NCBI GenBank assembly: GCA_020348305.1
Contig: CP070746.1
Location: 3,713,675 to 3,777,674, forward strand
Direction: 5' to 3'
Source of the DNA: Desulfobacterales bacterium
Lineage (GTDB): Bacteria > Desulfobacterota > Desulfobacteria > Desulfobacterales > JAHEIW01
DNA length: 64,000 nt
Shown here: positions 10,082 to 21,207 of the stretch, one piece after another
How positions within the stretch are numbered: position 1 is the stretch's first letter
How the letters are laid out: each line of letters begins with the position of its first letter
The notes under the pieces: generated by a model
What the model was told of the DNA's origin: nothing
Databases searched by the model: none
What the model saw: the letters and a program-made list of their open reading frames with translations, nothing else
Position numbers and translations under genes: made by a program

Positions 10082-10117
10082 AAAGGGTTTCCGCAGTGTC
10101 ATCCGCGGAAACCTTTT
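10082..10117 (+). terminator. Rho-independent terminator after the binding-protein gene
   Basis: AAAGGGTTTCCGC (10082-10094) pairs with GCGGAAACCTTTT (10105-10117) with one mismatch around a 10-base loop, and the T-run is part of the 3' arm. It closes the liv-ligase-binding protein operon. A GTG inside the loop (10096) would extend the next gene but is implausible as a start. Confidence 0.75.
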
Positions 10118-10137
10118 CTAATAGGAGCAATATTTAT

Positions 10138-10893
10138 ATGAACAAACTTGTATTGCGGGAAGATAAAGACGGCATCAGCATCCTTACGCTGAATCGCCCG
10201 GAATCTTTAAACGCCTTAAGTCCATCCCTGTTTGTCGAGTTGCGGGATCATGTCGACAACATCGCACAGTCCTGCGATGATATCGGATGTGTGATCCTGC
10301 AGGGTTCCGGGCGATCGTTTAGTGCCGGCAATGACTTAAAGGCCTTGCAAAAAGGGGAGACAGCGCCCAGTGAACATTTTCAGGCCGAGACCATTGAAGC
10401 ATTGGAAGCCATGCCCCAGCCGGTGATTGCTGCTGTTCAAGGCAACTGCTATACCGGTGCACTGGAACTGGTGCTGGGCTGTGATCTGTTGATTTGCGCT
10501 GAAAACGCAAAGTTTTTTGATACCCATGCTAAATGGGGGCTATCATCCACCTGGGGCATGAGCCAGCGGCTGCCGCGGCGAATAGGATATTTAAGAGCCA
10601 AGGAAGTCATGTATACGAGTCGCGAGATTTCCGGCAAAGAAGCGGAAGCTATCGGACTTGCCAACCGATGCGTACCGGATAATGAATTAACCGAGGCCGT
10701 GATGAAACTCGCGCGAGCCATTGTTGAAAATTCCTGGTTTACTTTGCGCACTTACAAAATGCTGATGCGAGAGGGGAGCAGACGGACCCTTTCTGATGCG
10801 CTGGCATTTGAGCGCGAAAACAGTCCTGGCATCGGACCGGATACGTTACAAAGGCTCGAAAAATTTTTTAAATCCAGAATGAATGAAAAATGA
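10138..10893 (+). CDS. Enoyl-CoA hydratase/isomerase (crotonase) family protein
   Basis: About 251 residues. Crotonase fold with the oxyanion-hole segments FSAGNDLKAL and NCYTGALELVLGCD. The first catalytic glutamate (ELVLGCD) is present. The second, normally PE in 'PEi.lG', is replaced by DTHAKWGL, so classical hydration is doubtful; isomerase, hydrolase or other crotonase chemistry is possible. The STWGMSQRLPRRIG segment is typical of a subgroup with DTHA. ATG 10138 follows TAGGAGC. Its stop overlaps the DUF2889 start by 4 bases, so the two are co-translated. Confidence 0.85.
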   Translation: MNKLVLREDKDGISILTLNRPESLNALSPSLFVELRDHVDNIAQSCDDIGCVILQGSGRSFSAGNDLKALQKGETAPSEHFQAETIEALEAMPQPVIAAVQGNCYTGALELVLGCDLLICAENAKFFDTHAKWGLSSTWGMSQRLPRRIGYLRAKEVMYTSREISGKEAEAIGLANRCVPDNELTEAVMKLARAIVENSWFTLRTYKMLMREGSRRTLSDALAFERENSPGIGPDTLQRLEKFFKSRMNEK

Positions 10894-11462
10894 TCAAACT
10901 TGACAAAAGCAAACACGAGAAAATACATACGCGTCAGATCGAAGTTGCTACCTATGATTGCGGTGAGAATGTTATCATATTGGAAGGAAAACTAAAGGAT
11001 GAGCGGTTAAAGGATATATACCGTCCGACCGGTGAGAATGTGCCGCCCGGAACTGTTCACCATATGATTATCCGGATGAAGGTCCGGAGGCCGGAATTGA
11101 TCATAGAAGATATCGATGTGGACATGCCCACGGTGCCCCATGGCGAATGCTGGGAAACCCGGACATCCCTTGAACCGGCCAAAGGAATGCGAATTACCTC
11201 TGGATTTACCGCCAGCGTCAAAGATCTGGTTGGCGGAGCCAAGGGGTGCGCCCATCTGGTGGCCCTGCTGATGAGCATGGCGTCGGCGGCCGTTCAGGGG
11301 GCCTGGACCGCATTGTCTCGAAATTCCGAGCAACCGTCCGGGTATTTGACCAAAGCAATGAATGCGATTGTCGACACTTGCAGGGTCTGGCGCAGAGATG
11401 GTCCGAAGTTGGCAGAGCACCGGGCAAAGCTTAAAGCTCGAGTCGCCAATAATAAACAATAA
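10890..11462 (+). CDS. DUF2889 domain-containing protein
   Basis: 190 residues. The pattern H-x-R-x-I near residue 14, GTVHHMIIRMKVR, the central DIDVDMPTVPHGECW and especially GGAKGCAHLVALLMSMASAAVQ near residues 112-133 match DUF2889. This family is often found beside acyl-CoA dehydrogenase, crotonase and thiolase genes, but no reaction is established. No signal peptide, presumably cytosolic. Starts within the end of the crotonase gene (ATGA overlap), implying a shared pathway. Confidence 0.75.
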   Translation: MIKLDKSKHEKIHTRQIEVATYDCGENVIILEGKLKDERLKDIYRPTGENVPPGTVHHMIIRMKVRRPELIIEDIDVDMPTVPHGECWETRTSLEPAKGMRITSGFTASVKDLVGGAKGCAHLVALLMSMASAAVQGAWTALSRNSEQPSGYLTKAMNAIVDTCRVWRRDGPKLAEHRAKLKARVANNKQ

Positions 11463-11795: not shown

Positions 11796-13235
11796 ATGTT
11801 AAACCAGACAGATATTCAAAAATTTTTCAAACCCAGACATATCGCCATTGTTGGTGTTTCTGCAGGTGAATATAAATTCGGCGGTATGAGTTTTTTAATG
11901 AAACTTCAGGATGGCGGCTATCCGGGAAGGCTCTATCCAATTAACCCTAAGGCTAAAGAGATCAGGGGGCTCAAGGTCTATCCGGACATATTGTCATTGC
12001 CGGAAGTTCCGGATCTGGCCATGGTGTGTGTGGCGGCAAAGTTTGTTCCCTCAGTTCTTGAACAGTGCGCCCGCATCGGGCTGAGACACATCCACATCTT
12101 CACCTCCGGTTTCAACGAAACCGGATTGGAAGAAGGAAAAAAACTTGAAGGGCAGATAGCTTCGATTGCAAAAGATAAAGGCTTAAAAATCATAGGTCCC
12201 AATTGCATGGGTCCGTATTGTCCTTCCTCGCAGCTCACAGCATGGGGTGCAATACCGGGGCTGAGTGGAACGCTGGGAATCATTTCTCAAAGTGGAGGAC
12301 TTACCCAGCGCCTCACCGAATACACCGATTCCCTTGGTATCGGTGTTGGCAGGGCAGTTAGTTTCGGAAATGGAACGGTTCTCAACGCTTTGGATTTTCT
12401 CGAAGCCATGGCGGAGGATGAAAGTATTCGCGTCATCGCCATGTATCTTGAAAGTGTCATGAATGGTAGCAGGTTCTTGCAAATTGCCAGGCATGTCAGC
12501 AACAATAAACCGATTGTCCTGTGGAAAGGTGGAGAAAGCAGCGCGGGGGCGGCCACCGCGGCCTCACATACCGGAGCTATGTTCGGTGAACAAAGGTTAT
12601 GGGAAGCCTTCTTTCGCCAAACAGGAGCAATTCATGTGCGCTCGATGAATGAATGGGTGGATATCATCATGGCGTTGAGCATGCTTTCTGCGCCCGCAGG
12701 AAAAGGTGTGTTTCTCATAGGCGGTGGGGGAGGAAACAGTGTGGCTTATGGTGATCTCTGCATTCGAGAGGGGCTTGAAGTACCACAATTGTCTGAATCT
12801 ACCATGGAGAGTCTTCGACGGAGTGTGCCGGTGGCGGGTTCAATTGCCGGAAACCCCCTCGATATGTGGCTGACATTTACTGATCCCGGTTATCTGGCTG
12901 ATGTGCTGGACCTGGCCTACAAGGATCCTTCTGTTTCTATGGTCGTTGTGGATCGACTCATCCCCAGAAAAGCCTTTCATATGCCGGACATGATCGATCC
13001 GACACCGGAAATAATTGAATTTTTAAATCATAATGATCATGCCAAACCAACCGTTTTTACGATAGATTCTGATGGCGGGGATTTGGATCTGACTGAAAAA
13101 GGAGTGGCATTAAGGGCTCATTTTTGCAAAGCCGGAATACCCGCCTTTCCGTCGTTCAGGAGAGCGGCAAGGGCTCTTTCCCATCTTTACAGCTATCATA
13201 ACTTTAGAAAAACATGTGAGTCATCACGAAAATGA
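11796..13235 (+). CDS. NDP-forming acyl-CoA synthetase, alpha (CoA-binding) subunit
   Basis: 479 residues, succinyl-CoA synthetase-like superfamily (ADP-forming acetyl/acyl-CoA synthetase). Order: CoA-binding Rossmann domain (FFKPRHIAIVGVSAGEYKFGG, YPINPKAKEIRGLKVYPDI), then the succinyl-CoA ligase-like flavodoxin domains with IIGPNCMGPY, ISQSGGL and AAASHTGAM. The histidine of SHTGA is the conserved second phospho-site of this family. The ATP-grasp beta subunit is not fused and is not in this window. It could supply or recover ATP from acyl-CoA, or activate an acid. Preceded by about 330 bp of repeats. Confidence 0.8.
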   Translation: MLNQTDIQKFFKPRHIAIVGVSAGEYKFGGMSFLMKLQDGGYPGRLYPINPKAKEIRGLKVYPDILSLPEVPDLAMVCVAAKFVPSVLEQCARIGLRHIHIFTSGFNETGLEEGKKLEGQIASIAKDKGLKIIGPNCMGPYCPSSQLTAWGAIPGLSGTLGIISQSGGLTQRLTEYTDSLGIGVGRAVSFGNGTVLNALDFLEAMAEDESIRVIAMYLESVMNGSRFLQIARHVSNNKPIVLWKGGESSAGAATAASHTGAMFGEQRLWEAFFRQTGAIHVRSMNEWVDIIMALSMLSAPAGKGVFLIGGGGGNSVAYGDLCIREGLEVPQLSESTMESLRRSVPVAGSIAGNPLDMWLTFTDPGYLADVLDLAYKDPSVSMVVVDRLIPRKAFHMPDMIDPTPEIIEFLNHNDHAKPTVFTIDSDGGDLDLTEKGVALRAHFCKAGIPAFPSFRRAARALSHLYSYHNFRKTCESSRK

Positions 13236-13489: not shown

Positions 13490-14137
13490 ATGATTAAGGC
13501 TATTTTCTGGGATTTTGGCGGGGTACTTACCACAGGCCCGTTTGGCGCTTTTAAGAAATTTGAACACGAAAATAATCTGCCCGAAAACTTCATCCGTAGG
13601 GTGAATGCCACCAATGCGGACACCAATAGCTGGGCCAGATTAGAACGGGGCGAAATCAGCCTTGAGGAATTTGATCGAGAATTTGAACAGGAAACCCGAT
13701 TAGCCGCTCATCCCATTTGAGGATTTCAGGTTTTGCAGCTTATCGCAGGGGATTTGCGTACGGATATGGTAGACGTGTTGCGTCGATGTAAGCAGCACTA
13801 TTGCAATGCCTGTCTGACGAATAATATAAATATTGGTGATGGTTCCGAAAAACAGCTGGTCGATGAACGTACAGCCGAATTTCAGAAGGTAATGGAATTG
13901 TTTGACTATGTCATCGAATCAAGTAAAGTAGGGGTACGCAAACCGGATCCCCGCTTTTACTTTTATAAGATGGCCTGTGAAATTGTGAAGGTGGATCCCC
14001 ATCAGGTGGTCTTCCTCGATGATCTCGGAATCAATTTGAAACCGGCGCGTGCGATAGGGATGACCACTATTAAGGTAACCGATCATCAAGGGGCGATAAA
14101 TGAACTGGAAGATGTTCTGGGAATAGAACTTACTTAG
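13490..14137 (+). pseudogene. HAD-IA family hydrolase with in-frame TGA
   Basis: Two ORFs (13490-13720 and 13733-14137) are in the same frame and separated only by a TGA at 13718-13720. Joined, they give about 215 residues of one HAD hydrolase. The first part carries FWDFGGVLTTG (motif I, nucleophile Asp) and ARLERGEISLEEFD. The second carries the motif II region CLTNN and motifs III-IV around KVGVRKPDPRFY and VVFLDDLGINL. The TGA stands where relatives tend to have a non-catalytic Arg/Asp before a Gly, consistent with CGA to TGA. No obvious SECIS-like hairpin follows, so I treat it as a nonsense-mutated or read-through gene rather than a selenoprotein. GAGAGGG precedes ATG 13490. Confidence 0.7.
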
Positions 14138-14170: not shown

Positions 14171-15628
14171 ATGGCCGGAATATGTTCGTATGGCGGTTAC
14201 GTACCGCGTTACCGTTTAAACCGGATGCTGGTTTATCAAGCCATGGGCTGGATGAATCCGGCCAATATTGCCAATGCAGGCGGCGAAAAGGCAGTAGCTA
14301 ATTTTGATGAAGACAGCATTACCATGGCTGTGGCCGCTGGTCTCAATGCTCTGAATGGAATGGATCGTTCAGAAGTACAGGGTGTTTATTTCGCTTCGAC
14401 CACCATGCCGTACAAAGAAAGACTCAATTCAGGTATTGTATCGGCTGCCCTTGGCCTCAACGATCACATTCGCACGGCTGATTTCTCAGGCGGCCTCAAA
14501 GCCGGCACAACGGCGCTGTTGTCCGCCCTGGACGGGGTAGAGGCCAAAAACTTAAATAATGTTGTTGTTACGGCATCTGAGTGCAGGCTGGGAAAGCCGG
14601 CATCTCCCCAGGAGTTGATTTTCGGTGATGCGTCGGCAGCCCTTGTGATCGGGGATGAAGATGTGATTGCCGAATTCAAGGGATCCTATTCCGTAACCCA
14701 TGATTTTGCGGATCATTACCGGGGACAGTCCGCAAAATACGACCGCCAGTGGGAAGATCGCTGGATCCGGGATTTGGGCTTTGATCAGTTCATTCCCGAG
14801 GCAATTAATGGTCTTCTGAATAAGTACAGCCTAAAAAGCGATGATTTCGCCAGAGTCATTTACGACTGCCACTATGCGGCTGCCCGCAAGAAACTCGGCA
14901 AGGTATTGGGTATTGCCCCGGAGACAGATCAGACTAATTTACAGGCGGAAGTCGGGCAAAGCGGCACCGCTCAATCGCTGGTGATGTTGGTCAATGCGTT
15001 GGAAGAGGCCAAACCGGGAGACAAGCTTCTGGTAGTCAGTTTCGGCAGTGGATGCGATGCCCTTTATTTTGAGGTAACCGCAAATATTGAAAAGAGAACG
15101 GATAGGGAAGCGATCTCCGCTTGTCTGTCCAATAAGGCTGAACTGGATAATTACACCAAGTATCTCGTCTGGCGCAATATCTTGCCGGGTGATGCCGGCT
15201 TGCGCTCTGAAGAAGATGTTTGGACGCGCTGGTCGGCGCTGTGGCGTTCGCGCAAAACGGTTCTGGGTCTTTGGGGCACAAAGTGCAAAAAATGCGGTAC
15301 CGCTCAGATTCCGCCACAAAATGTATGCGTCAATCCCGAATGCGGGGCAATTAACCAGATGGATGATTATCTTTTCTCAGATAAAATCGGACATATCGCC
15401 AGTTTTACCGGCGATATGCTGGCTGCATCTTTAAATCCGCCGGCTGTTTACGGCCAGATCGAGTTTGAAGGCGGCGGCAAGATGATGTTTGACTTTACCG
15501 ATTGTAATCTTGATGAGCTGGAGATCGGTATGCCGGTTTCAATGAGTTTTCGTAGGAAATACTATGATGAGAAACGGGACATTTCAGGATATTTCTGGAA
15601 AGCGGTCCCCGTGAAGGAGGTGAAATAA
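14171..15628 (+). CDS. HMG-CoA synthase-like protein fused to a DUF35 zinc/OB-fold domain
   Basis: 485 residues. Residues 1-310 are a thiolase-fold HMG-CoA-synthase-like domain (ICSYGGYVPRYRL opening, ELIFGDASAALVIGD near 148-161, VVSFGSGCDALYF near 288-300). Residues 345-485 are DUF35: a zinc ribbon with Cys372, 375, 386 and 391, then an OB fold. Compared with HMG-CoA synthase, the catalytic Cys before KAGT is Leu109, the Glu of the '(S)ES.P' motif is Thr77, and the His region reads YDCH (231-234). The condensing triad therefore appears lost. It is followed 0 bp later by a thiolase, matching known DUF35-thiolase partnerships. Strong site AAGGAGG before ATG 14171. Confidence 0.8.
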   Translation: MAGICSYGGYVPRYRLNRMLVYQAMGWMNPANIANAGGEKAVANFDEDSITMAVAAGLNALNGMDRSEVQGVYFASTTMPYKERLNSGIVSAALGLNDHIRTADFSGGLKAGTTALLSALDGVEAKNLNNVVVTASECRLGKPASPQELIFGDASAALVIGDEDVIAEFKGSYSVTHDFADHYRGQSAKYDRQWEDRWIRDLGFDQFIPEAINGLLNKYSLKSDDFARVIYDCHYAAARKKLGKVLGIAPETDQTNLQAEVGQSGTAQSLVMLVNALEEAKPGDKLLVVSFGSGCDALYFEVTANIEKRTDREAISACLSNKAELDNYTKYLVWRNILPGDAGLRSEEDVWTRWSALWRSRKTVLGLWGTKCKKCGTAQIPPQNVCVNPECGAINQMDDYLFSDKIGHIASFTGDMLAASLNPPAVYGQIEFEGGGKMMFDFTDCNLDELEIGMPVSMSFRRKYYDEKRDISGYFWKAVPVKEVK

Positions 15629-16834
15629 ATGGCAGATGGTATCAAAGATAAAGTCGCTATATTAGGCATGGGATGCACCCGCTTTGGTGAGCGCTGGGAA
15701 GCGTATGCGGAAGATCTGGCTACCGAAGCCTTTGTCGAATGCTTGGAAGATGCCGGAATTGAGAAAAAAGAGATTCAGGCGGCCTATATCGGCACCCATA
15801 TTGATGAAATCAACGTAGGAAAAGCTGCCGTTCCTTTAGGCGTTGCTTTAAAATTACCTTATATTCCGGTCACCCGAACCGAAAACTATTGCGCCACAGC
15901 CACGGAAGCTTTCAGAGCGGCCTGCTATTCGGTGGCGGCTGGCGTTTACGATATCGTCCTGGCGTTAGGGGTAGAAAAATTAAAGGATACCGGTTACGGT
16001 GGTTTGCCATCAGGCGGATCAATGGGTGTTAAACCCTTTATGATGGGCGCCAACATGACCGCACCGGGCATGTTTGCTCAGCTGGCGACCGCTTACAGCG
16101 CCAAGTGGGGTGTGCCTATGGAAAAGATAAAAGATGCCATGGCCCATGTTTCAGCCAAGAGCCATGCCAATGGTGCGCTCAACCCCAAAGCTCATCTGCG
16201 AAAGGTGGTTTCCGAAGATCAGATTAAAGCCGCCCCTATGATTGCCTATCCTCTGGGACTTTTTGACTGCTGTGGGGTGAGTGACGGGTCGGCGTGCGTC
16301 ATCGTCACCACACCGGAGATCGCAAAGAGTCTGAAAAAGAACCAAGATATCGTTAAGGTAAAGGCGTTGTCGGTATCCGTAAGCTCGGGTGAAGAAGCCA
16401 TCGGAAATACCTGGGATGGCGCTCATTTTGTTACCACTCGCATTGCGGCCACCAACGCATACGAAGAGGCCGGTATTAAAAATCCCAGAGAAGATCTGAG
16501 TATGATGGAAGTGCATGATTGTTTTTCTATTACGGAGATGGTCACCATGGAAGATTTGCACATTTCACCGAAAGGCGGTGCCTATGATGATATCATGGGC
16601 GGGTTTTATGATCTTGATGGAAAGGTGCCCTGCCAGGTGGACGGTGGTTTGAAATGCTTCGGCCATCCCATCGGCGCTTCGGGATTGCGCATGCTTTATG
16701 CCATGTATGAACAATTGCTGGATAGAGTGCCGCAAGAAAGAAAAGTCAAGAATGCGCATCTGGGGCTAACCCATAATTTAGGAGGCATGCCTCATTCAAA
16801 TGTGGCTGCGATTTCAATTATTGGAATCGATTGA
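15629..16834 (+). CDS. SCP-x-type thiolase
   Basis: 401 residues, thiolase superfamily of the SCP2/SCP-x branch. The reactive Cys is in ENYCATATEAF near residue 89, the active His in EVHDCFSITE near 292, and GHPIGASGLR near 345. The usual C-terminal Cys motif is replaced by NLGGMPHSN, which is common in this branch. It would catalyse thiolytic (or retro-aldol) cleavage of a beta-keto/hydroxy acyl-CoA in the cytosol. Its ATG lies right after the stop of the HMGCS-DUF35 protein, which suggests the two proteins form one complex, as for other thiolase/DUF35 pairs. Confidence 0.85.
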   Translation: MADGIKDKVAILGMGCTRFGERWEAYAEDLATEAFVECLEDAGIEKKEIQAAYIGTHIDEINVGKAAVPLGVALKLPYIPVTRTENYCATATEAFRAACYSVAAGVYDIVLALGVEKLKDTGYGGLPSGGSMGVKPFMMGANMTAPGMFAQLATAYSAKWGVPMEKIKDAMAHVSAKSHANGALNPKAHLRKVVSEDQIKAAPMIAYPLGLFDCCGVSDGSACVIVTTPEIAKSLKKNQDIVKVKALSVSVSSGEEAIGNTWDGAHFVTTRIAATNAYEEAGIKNPREDLSMMEVHDCFSITEMVTMEDLHISPKGGAYDDIMGGFYDLDGKVPCQVDGGLKCFGHPIGASGLRMLYAMYEQLLDRVPQERKVKNAHLGLTHNLGGMPHSNVAAISIIGID

Positions 16835-17514: not shown

Positions 17515-18645
17515 ATGGGACCACTTCAAGGAGTGAAAATCATCGAGGTTGGGGGCATCGGGCCGGGTCCATTTTGTGCCATGATGCTTTCGGATATGGG
17601 AGCTGAAGTCATCCGAATCGAACGAAAGGGACAGGCTGCATTAACCCAGCCTAAATTTGATGTGATGATGCGAAACAGACGCTCGATGGAAATCGATCTC
17701 AGAAAACCTGAAGGCGTTGCTGCTGTATTAAAAATGGTTGAACAGGTGGATGCCCTGCAGGAAGGCTTTCGGCCGAGCGTGATGGAAAAATTGGGATTGG
17801 GGCCGGATGTATGTCTGCAGCGCAACCCACGGCTTGTTTATGGCAGGATGACCGGTTGGGGGCAGGAGGGACCGCTTGCCAAAGTAGCCGGTCATGATAT
17901 CAACTACATTTCATTATCGGGTGCGTTGCATACCTTTTGTCGCAAGGGTCAAAAGCCGGTGGCTCCATTGAACATGGTGGGGGATTTTGGCGGCGGGGGG
18001 ATGCTACTGGCATTCGGTATAGTCTGCGCTCTTTATGAAGCCCAGAAATCCGGTCAAGGCCAGGTGGTGGATGCGGCCATGGTGGATGGCTCTGCCGCCT
18101 TGATGGCCATGATATACGGTCTGCGAGCGTCAGGATTTTGGAAAGACGAGCGTGGGGCCAACCTTTTGGATAGCGGTGCGCACTTTTACGATACCTATGA
18201 AACAGCGGACGGTAAATATATATCTGTTGGGTCTCTTGAGCCTCAATTTTATGAGCTTTTGCTAAAACATACAGGAGTCGACGATCCGGATTTTAAAAAC
18301 CAGTTGGATCCCAAAAAATGGCCGGAGTTTAAAGAAAAAAATACAGAAATTTTTAAAACAAAAACCCGGGATCAGTGGTGTGAGATCATGGAAGGTACCG
18401 ATGTATGCTTTGCGCCGGTTTTATCTCTTGATGAAGCTCCTGAACATCCACATAATAAGGTGAGAAATACATTCATCGAAATAGAGGGAGTTCGTCAGCC
18501 GGCACCGGCGCCACGCTTTTCACGAACCGCTCCCGAAATAAAAAATCCACCGCCAACCCCCGGAGAGAATACGGAACAAGTTTTATCAGACTTTGGATTT
18601 CACACAGAGGAGATTGAAGCACTAAAGAAAGTAGAGGCGATATAA
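17515..18645 (+). CDS. CaiB/BaiF family CoA transferase, alpha-methylacyl-CoA racemase-like
   Basis: 376 residues, family III CoA-transferase fold. Residues expected for alpha-methylacyl-CoA racemase are present: His in GHDINYISLSGAL (near 128), Asp in NMVGDFGGGGM (near 157) and Glu in YETADGKYISVGSLEPQFYEL. The combination favours racemase over CoA transfer. It would invert the (R)-2-methylacyl-CoA epimer so beta-oxidation can proceed, which is a strong hint that the island handles 2-methyl-branched acids. Starts 46 bp after the MBL gene, with TTAGGAGC upstream. Confidence 0.85.
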   Translation: MGPLQGVKIIEVGGIGPGPFCAMMLSDMGAEVIRIERKGQAALTQPKFDVMMRNRRSMEIDLRKPEGVAAVLKMVEQVDALQEGFRPSVMEKLGLGPDVCLQRNPRLVYGRMTGWGQEGPLAKVAGHDINYISLSGALHTFCRKGQKPVAPLNMVGDFGGGGMLLAFGIVCALYEAQKSGQGQVVDAAMVDGSAALMAMIYGLRASGFWKDERGANLLDSGAHFYDTYETADGKYISVGSLEPQFYELLLKHTGVDDPDFKNQLDPKKWPEFKEKNTEIFKTKTRDQWCEIMEGTDVCFAPVLSLDEAPEHPHNKVRNTFIEIEGVRQPAPAPRFSRTAPEIKNPPPTPGENTEQVLSDFGFHTEEIEALKKVEAI

Positions 18646-19500: not shown

Positions 19501-21207
19501 ATGTATGTAGAAAAATTTTGGAAAAATAATTGGGATGCGGGCATAGATGATCTTAAGCCCGAAGAGTATGAGACTACTTATGTTGAAATGATTGAACAGT
19601 CATTTAAAGAGGTGCCGGAAAAAACAGCGCTGGCTTATTTAGGAGTAGATATTGCTTTTAGCGAACTGGATAAATATGCCAATCAGTTTGCCAACATGTT
19701 GAGAGAAAGCGGTTTTGAAAAAGCAGACATTGTAGGAATTAATTTACCGAACATACCGGAATATGTCATCACCGTTATCGGCGCGTTGCGAGCCGGCTGT
19801 ATTATTTCCGGCGTATCTCCACTGCTTTCCGCCGAACAGATCAAGTATCAATTAAACGATTTGGGCAGCACCGGAAAAAAAGTTGCGTTAGTCACCCTTG
19901 ATGCGATATTCGCCGGACATATTGTCAAGACCGCTTCCGACATTCCTCAACTAAAACTTGTTGTAACCACCAGTGTGGCCGGTTTTTTACCGAAAATCAA
20001 ACAGGTGCTGGGAAAACTTCTTAAAAAAATTCCATCCGGCAAGGTAACCCCCTTAGCAGGAAAAACCATTTTAGACTATCACAAAGATGTTCTAAAAAAT
20101 TTCGCTACTGAGCCAGAGAAAGTTGATTTAACACCTGATGATTTGGGATGGATTCAATATACCGGCGGAACCACAGGTGCTCCCAAGGGCGCTATGTTGA
20201 GCCATAGAAATGCGGCCCATAATATTCTAAGCGTTACTAAATGGCTCGGATGGGAATGGGGAAAGGGTGTTTTATTATCTGCATTCCCGATGTTCCACAT
20301 TGCCGGACTTGCGGTTTGTGAGGGCGCTATTTATTTTGGATGGACCCAGGTATTGATTCCCAACCCGCGCGACACCGATCACATCTGCAGCGAAATGGCC
20401 AAATACAAGCCAACTAACCTGGCCAACGTTCCTTCTTTATACCAGATGCTGATGGCCAATCCAAAATTCAAAGAATTGGATCATTCTGGATTAGGCACTT
20501 GCATTTCCGCTGCGGCACCGTTTCCCGCAGAATCCCAGCAGGAATTTGAAAGCATTATCGGAGAGGGGAAATTGTTAGAGCTGTATGGAATGACGGAAAC
20601 ATCTCCTGTCTCTACCATGAACCCCTCAAAGGGCAAGAAAAAATTGGGAAGCGTCGGGATGCCATTTTTAAATGTTGACTGTAAGATGGTGGATCCGGGT
20701 ACCGGTGAAGAGGTGCCGTTAGGCGAAGCCGGAGAAATCTGCGTAAAAGGGCCGCCGGTTATGCAAGGCTATTTCAACAAGCCGCAAGAAACTAAAAATG
20801 CCATTGATCAAGACGGATATATGCATACGGGTGACGTGGGTATTATGGATGAAGACGGATATATACGGATTGTAGATCGGACAAAGGACATGATTATTGT
20901 GGGCGGGTTTAAAGTGTTTTCCAGCAAAGTAGAAGATATCGTATCCAAGCATCCGGCTGTTGGTATGATGGCTCTGATCGGTGTGGATAACCCGGAGCGA
21001 CCCGGCTCCGAGCTGGTAAAAGCGTATGTGCAGATAGACCCTGAGTACATCTTTGATGGTAATCAAGAAGCTTTAAAAGAAGATATTATTAAATTTGCCA
21101 AAGACAAATGCGCGCCCTATGAAGTTCCGAAACTTATCGAATTTTTAGAGGAGATGCCGCTTACGGCGGTTGGAAAAATCGATAAAAAAGTTTTACGTGT
21201 TGAATAA
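19501..21207 (+). CDS. AMP-dependent acyl-CoA ligase (medium/long chain)
   Basis: 568 residues, ANL superfamily. N-terminal MYVEKFWKNNWDAGIDDLKP is typical of a proteobacterial long-chain-fatty-acid-CoA ligase group. P-loop YTGGTTGAPKGAM near residue 222, YGMTETSP, DGYMHTGDVGIMDEDGYI, and the C-terminal GKIDKK with the catalytic Lys are intact. It acts in the cytosol, forming acyl-CoA with AMP and PPi. It stands alone with its own upstream region, 850 bp after the racemase, and is the second AMP-forming ligase of the island. Confidence 0.88.
   Translation: MYVEKFWKNNWDAGIDDLKPEEYETTYVEMIEQSFKEVPEKTALAYLGVDIAFSELDKYANQFANMLRESGFEKADIVGINLPNIPEYVITVIGALRAGCIISGVSPLLSAEQIKYQLNDLGSTGKKVALVTLDAIFAGHIVKTASDIPQLKLVVTTSVAGFLPKIKQVLGKLLKKIPSGKVTPLAGKTILDYHKDVLKNFATEPEKVDLTPDDLGWIQYTGGTTGAPKGAMLSHRNAAHNILSVTKWLGWEWGKGVLLSAFPMFHIAGLAVCEGAIYFGWTQVLIPNPRDTDHICSEMAKYKPTNLANVPSLYQMLMANPKFKELDHSGLGTCISAAAPFPAESQQEFESIIGEGKLLELYGMTETSPVSTMNPSKGKKKLGSVGMPFLNVDCKMVDPGTGEEVPLGEAGEICVKGPPVMQGYFNKPQETKNAIDQDGYMHTGDVGIMDEDGYIRIVDRTKDMIIVGGFKVFSSKVEDIVSKHPAVGMMALIGVDNPERPGSELVKAYVQIDPEYIFDGNQEALKEDIIKFAKDKCAPYEVPKLIEFLEEMPLTAVGKIDKKVLRVE

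Follow-up and report, generated by a model that had tools for sequence, protein, structure and literature searches.

Catalysis by HMG-CoA synthase (HMGCS) requires a cysteine, a glutamate and a histidine, all three. In the archaeal complex of HMGCS, DUF35 and acetoacetyl-CoA thiolase (6esq), the catalytic residues of the synthase include Glu82 and Cys114 (PMC6392133). In PhlABC, the corresponding sites of PhlA hold Cys83 and Gly115, and acyl transfer is described as involving residues of PhlC only (PMC6392133). PhlABC assembles as Phl(A2C2)2B4, each kind of subunit contributes to the walls of its cavity, and its function needs all three: subunits made separately and then mixed are inactive (PMC6392133). 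The PhlC cavity residues named in that report include no second cysteine. CsATase is described as being of the same kind as PhlABC (PMC12955522).

In benzoylsuccinyl-CoA thiolase (BbsAB), the thiolase is partnered by a DUF35 protein that is not known to carry an HMGS-like domain. In the Sal-Shy system, DUF35 is described as the docking part; ShyMaoC remains functional when DUF35 is missing, and DUF35 is a sufficient partner for Sal (PMC11321319). Each of Sal and Shy can thus do without the other's non-DUF35 domain, so that fusion to DUF35 may have no bearing on activity; this counts against the complex reading proposed below. Structural homologues reported for Sal are 6ESQ, PhlABC and benzoylsuccinyl-CoA thiolase; the aldolases are described as carrying a YDC(Y) or YDHF motif, and CtSal has a glycine at the nucleophilic cysteine (PMC12329534).

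Here we describe a gene pair, A and B, from a stretch of 64,000 nucleotides (the window) of a 6.97-Mb genome whose closest named relatives are Desulfobacterales assemblies. A encodes an HMGS-like domain fused to DUF35, and B encodes a thiolase. Their closest precedent is PhlABC, which the sequence-only reading of this DNA had not named. Like A and B, PhlABC (PpATase) and CsATase (5m3k, 9skh) combine an HMGS-like protein that lacks the Cys and Glu, a DUF35 protein and a catalytic thiolase fold. Unlike A and B, PhlABC is encoded by three separate genes and carries out CoA-independent acyl transfer in DAPG biosynthesis, and PhlA falls in the HMGCS group, outside the A family. The archaeal complex contains the same three folds and shows the highest structural similarity to both halves of the pair, but it differs in its active HMGCS, its place in the mevalonate pathway and its separate subunits. 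BbsAB (7pxp) resembles the pair as a catabolic CoA thiolase with a DUF35 partner. ChsH1-ChsH2-Ltp2 and Shy-Sal resemble A in using DUF35 as a fused docking domain, and ChsH2 is described as having a non-catalytic domain; in these systems, however, a MaoC, dead or live, takes the place of HMGS, and an aldolase that of the thiolase. The MucABC acyltransferase (9vbo) likewise has HMGS-like and thiolase-fold subunits, but is described as a streptococcal multi-component acyltransferase. No title or opening abstract found in our search, which lay mostly within freely accessible literature, names the fused HMGS-DUF35 family.

A fused HMGS-like/DUF35 gene abuts a thiolase gene

A (485 aa; 14171..15628, + strand) and B (401 aa; 15629..16834, + strand) are co-directional and abut: the TAA stop of A occupies 15626-15628, and the ATG of B begins at 15629. 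A Shine-Dalgarno-like AGGAGGT for B, read from the sequence, lies within the 3' end of A (15615..15621, + strand). Both open reading frames are real, in agreement with the original proposal that an HMGS-like/DUF35 gene adjoins an SCP-x thiolase gene. Directly upstream, at 13733-14137, is a HAD-like gene that an in-frame stop makes shorter than its copy in L056, from a genome of the same genus; it is either a pseudogene or an assembly error.

The fusion within A was also borne out. The DUF35 part, a ChsH2-type zinc ribbon plus OB fold, spans residues 358-483 (15242..15619, + strand) and was recognised by Pfam and by its match to 6esq_E (4.2e-13). Both PF12172 (zinc ribbon, residues 367-393) and PF01796 (OB fold, residues 407-461) scored above cut-off, and the four zinc cysteines (Cys372, 375, 386 and 391) are complete in 149/151 homologues.

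The catalytic triad is absent throughout the A family

The HMGS-like domain (residues 1-338; 14171..15184, + strand) matches the archaeal synthase chain 6esq_I (phmmer, 1.6e-28). In this alignment, together with a tally of residues across homologues, Glu82 corresponds to Thr77 (codon 14399..14401), Cys114 to Leu109 (14495..14497) and the catalytic histidine to Asp232 of a YDCH motif (14864..14866; all + strand). We found that none of 151 distinct full-length A homologues has C109, E77 or H232; this set omits A matches that do not span residues 25-460 as well as the HMGCS loci L126/L161. Position 109 is occupied by L in 78, I in 25, T in 16, Q in 13, A in 5, P in 4, M in 4, V in 3, R in 1 and S in 1, with 1 gap, and position 232 by P in 78, Y in 20, D in 15, Q in 12, A in 11, S in 7, C in 3, N in 2, T in 2 and G in 1. 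By entropy rank, these two positions exceed 67% and 70%, respectively, of the domain columns in variability. Position 77 is rather conserved as Thr (132/151; otherwise S 5, V 5, D 5, N 2, M 1, L 1), which could reflect a reused pocket and counts against a purely non-catalytic reading. In the same alignments, the intact archaeal HMGCS of locus L161 retains all three triad residues. Because no homologue keeps these residues and the control keeps them all, the loss is neither chance nor a sequencing slip. The NCBIfam models for HMGCS score below cut-off on A (NF003274, 216 of 244 bits; TIGR00748, 163 of 353 bits). The replacements that had been read from this one sequence thus hold across the family, and the residues support the view of a seemingly dead synthase domain; an intact Cys-His-Glu set elsewhere in the domain, sought through conservation, was not found.

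A and PhlA were also compared by maximum likelihood, in a tree of 53 rows that took 48 of the 116 A representatives and used Cys-bearing, KAS III-type outgroups. PhlA clusters with HMGCS (99/96), and none of the 48 A rows falls within that cluster; the outgroup branch of this tree is very long and its root is unsure. Given this grouping and the cysteine of the outgroups, two losses of the triad, one in the A family and one in PhlA, would be the simplest account.

Despite the missing triad, the HMGS-like domain is not decaying. Nei-Gojobori dN/dS over residues 1-338 was 0.077, 0.069 and 0.087 against homologues L031, L032 and L056, the comparisons with the least saturated synonymous sites. Values of 0.036 (L004) and 0.065 (L035) came from comparisons with near-saturated synonymous sites, and the ratio for L034 was not computable. 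These low ratios indicate strong purifying selection on the domain. Mean identity over 129 pairs was 0.57 for the thiolase, 0.45 for the HMGS-like domain and 0.46 for DUF35; B is therefore the slower-evolving part.

B is an intact thiolase that accompanies A

B scores 648 bits against a cut-off of 403 on NCBIfam NF004810 and matches 6esq_A. It contains the nucleophile Cys88 (codon 15890..15892), the motif His296-Asp-Cys298-Phe (16514..16525) and His346 of GHPIG (codon 16664..16666; all + strand). Cys88, HDCF and the His of GHP are kept in 85/85 B representatives, a count that leaves out the 86th row of the alignment, the outgroup archaeal thiolase L128/L161. The score and these residues confirm that the partner of A is an intact SCP2-type thiolase. 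The BbsB equivalog model gave 143 bits on B against a cut-off of 750.

We examined the 135 distinct A genes that are followed by 1150 nt or more of sequence. In 131 of them, B lies on the same strand, no more than 400 nt downstream, counting the split B of L003/L056 as present. The four genes with no B in the available sequence (L153, L156, L180 and L181) count against the reading of A and B as a complex; two of these, L180 and L181, are A-SDR fusions of the window's own genus, on stretches that contain N runs. At the expected place of the thiolase after the fusion of L180 (3347-4519) is a transposase, with N runs nearby. In locus L056 (7459-8661; L003/L056, from a genome of the same genus), B is disrupted after codon 122, through an assembly fault or in reality, and this too counts against a complex.

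Across 129 pairs, distances among HMGS-like domains follow those among B proteins with a correlation of 0.87, against a maximum of 0.17 after shuffling; the correlation is in part due to common descent. Paralogues of A, about 48% identical, run on into an SDR dehydrogenase; one of them is in this genome (C1:329772), and two of three scanned with Pfam end in an SCP2 domain. Long frames of HMGS-like domain, DUF35 and SDR occur in L011, L012, L014-L016, L018, L027, L028 and L182-L189, and the A-SDR(-SCP2) frames are candidates for a multi-enzyme polypeptide that carries out the final steps of beta-oxidation. B lies downstream of the A-SDR fusions in 8/10 stretches, the two without it being those of the window's genus. 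Among the long open frames of L175-L179 there was no single-chain A-B fusion; A and B are separate there.

The folds of A and B match subunits of one kind of complex

Structural comparison with VIA-align matched the predicted A to 6esq_I with Z 43.4 and rmsd 2.3 over 336 aligned residues, followed by 9skh_C (Z 42.3) and PhlA, 5mg5_A (Z 42.0); A thus has the overall HMG-CoA synthase fold. The matches of B were 6esq_A (Z 55.3), BbsB 7pyt (54.0), zebrafish SCP2 thiolase (52.6) and PhlC, 5mg5_C (51.4). The best matches of A and of B are therefore subunits of one kind of complex. The match lists for A and B hold no DUF35 chains, which is uninformative because larger domains fill the lists.

When A and B were predicted as one read-through chain, 30 paired rows gave pLDDT 77.0 and pTM 0.77, and 119 paired and unpaired rows gave pLDDT 88.6 and pTM 0.59. 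The predicted folds of A and B are sure but their mutual arrangement is not, and with the two pTM values in disagreement the A-B interface stays putative.

The surroundings of the pair suggest beta-oxidation-like catabolism

In the window, the pair is accompanied by genes for an enoyl-CoA hydratase/isomerase (10096..10893), a family III CoA-transferase (17515..18645) and a FadD-like acyl-CoA ligase (19501..21207), all on the + strand, and by a gene for a YsiA-like TetR regulator. A DUF2889 gene (10890-11462) lies between the hydratase and the alpha part of an ADP-forming acyl-CoA synthetase (11796-13235; Succ_CoA_lig and CoA_binding); no beta part is among the window neighbours scanned. Across the family, we scanned 128 neighbouring genes in two sets of 64, from 189 listed. 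Acyl-CoA dehydrogenases made up 12-13/64 and 8/64 of these, and the sets also held SDR (8 and 6), MaoC (4 and 5) and ECH (3 and 4) proteins as well as CoA ligases and CoA-transferases.

The immediate neighbours in the window are not conserved beyond the genus, which counts against the complex reading. We thus rejected a conserved operon around the pair, and no substrate can be read from its surroundings; analogy with SCP2 and branched-chain thiolases would be only a lead to the substrate. We also rejected a mevalonate role for A, as it lacks the triad and as HMG-CoA reductase (PF00368) is absent from this genome, which is 92.2% complete (controls found in 5/14). From the fusions, the neighbours and the missing reductase, we conclude that B is most likely the thiolase of a beta-oxidation-like route.

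A as a probable non-catalytic partner of B

With its triad lost, its DUF35 fused and an intact thiolase nearly always adjacent, A is probably the non-catalytic half of a partnership. We consider it likely that A is a pseudoenzyme-DUF35 subunit that holds the beta-oxidation thiolase B and completes its CoA/substrate cavity. The residues and their conservation, the pairing of the genes, the folds, the selection on the domain, the fusions and the neighbours are observed; the physical complex, the shared cavity and the thiolytic direction we infer. In our model, A would be the pseudoenzyme subunit and B the enzyme. The DUF35 of A would dock onto a B dimer, and the dead HMGS-like domain would pack against both DUF35 and B, in the manner of PhlA and PhlB around PhlC. 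A common CoA/substrate cavity would be formed by the three folds, and the only site at work in it would be that of B, Cys88/His296/Cys298/His346, where B would cleave 3-ketoacyl-CoA thiolytically in a beta-oxidation-like catabolic route; A would stabilise B and probably shape or gate its pocket. Of the functions first suggested for A, that of a scaffold fits the conserved pairing, the purifying selection and the PhlA/PhlB/PhlC precedent. Channelling from thiolase to synthase, as in archaea, is at odds with the presence of only one intact active site.

A further suggestion was new catalysis. The HMGS-like domain might use other residues, such as Cys233, beside the lost histidine site and the most notable cysteine of the domain (96/151), or a set of Arg139, Asp153 and Trp194-Glu195-x-Arg197, of which Arg139, Asp153, Trp194 and Glu195 are more than 90% conserved in the A family and differ in archaeal HMGCS. 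However, Cys233 is replaced by A, G, S, Q and others in 55/151, no Cys or His of the domain exceeds 90% conservation in the homologue alignment, and Arg139 is common to A and the non-catalytic PhlA. At two of the three former catalytic positions, 109 and 232, variation exceeds that of two thirds of the domain columns, and no Cys or His has taken over as a conserved substitute; we therefore regard a new activity as unsupported and unlikely. Another account, that the domain is an evolutionary relic whose role is limited to carrying DUF35, draws on the missing catalytic residues and on the reported function of ShyMaoC without DUF35 and of Sal with DUF35 alone (PMC11321319). A relic would not be expected to show such strong purifying selection, or to keep R15, D48, G152, R197, G262 and G294 invariant in 116/116 representatives, and we judge this account quite improbable.

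Other activities can be asked of the pair as a whole. A PhlABC- or MucABC-like acyltransferase, performing C- or N-acylation rather than thiolysis, is suggested by the best PDB sequence matches of A, which are to PhlA (5.8e-35 and 1.5e-34), and by MucABC chains that match both A and B. Yet in sequence and, slightly, in structure, PhlC is more distant from B than are archaeal acetoacetyl-CoA thiolase, BbsB and SCP2 thiolases; B retains the second cysteine (HDCF) that is missing from the PhlC cavity residues given in PMC6392133; PhlA falls with HMGCS in the tree; and the neighbours are beta-oxidation genes. We therefore give this possibility little weight. Least plausible is a retro-aldolase like Sal-Shy or Ltp2-ChsH2: the DUF35-thiolase-fold architecture is common to both, and 6ok1 and 9myr match B, but Cys88 and HDCF stand in B against the aldolase YDC(Y)/YDHF and the glycine of CtSal described in PMC12329534, making it very unlikely indeed.

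Distribution and naming of the A family

A thiolase-partner role for A would have consequences for annotation. What appears to be an HMG-CoA synthase, common in sulfate reducers and present also in Dehalococcoidia and actinobacteria, is likely a non-catalytic thiolase partner; the A family is likely misnamed in many genomes, and their pathway annotation would lose a mevalonate or HMG-CoA step. A dead synthase as scaffold is already known from PhlABC, but the A-B lineage is separate, fused and, in our reading, catabolic. Its many members are natural examples of a dead enzyme fold that selection maintains next to one live copy of a related fold, so that the service of a pseudoenzyme subunit to its partner becomes testable by domain deletion. 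More tentatively, the pairs may form a class of two-headed thiolases that is large, old and so far unrecognised, in which a dead HMGS-DUF35 protein, sometimes extended by SDR and SCP2, supplies half of the substrate cavity. If so, the dead half would determine the choice of bulky or branched acyl-CoA for cleavage, as a parallel to the dead MaoC half of ChsH1-ChsH2; the triad would have been lost at least twice (A family and PhlA); and the gene name 'HMG-CoA synthase' would be mistaken in a great number of cases.

Searches with A at E<=0.001 gave matches in 23/58 relatives, 100/247 genomes of the phylum and 38/149 genomes in the phylum of an Acidimicrobium-labelled genome, counts that include short DUF35-only or KAS III-like matches. 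The named loci, mostly from metagenome assemblies, belong to Desulfobacterales, Dehalococcoidia, Nitrospinae, Actinomycetota, Peribacillus asahii, a Caulobacteraceae and a short Thermoplasmata-labelled contig. In a Thermoplasmata-labelled genome (L161, 1543-2706; G061:C257), an HMGCS with an intact triad stands beside a thiolase that has Asp for the nucleophilic Cys, Ser for the Cys of HDCF and Phe for the His of GHP. Judged by these residues, L161 looks like the mirror case, in which the thiolase, not the HMGCS, appears dead.
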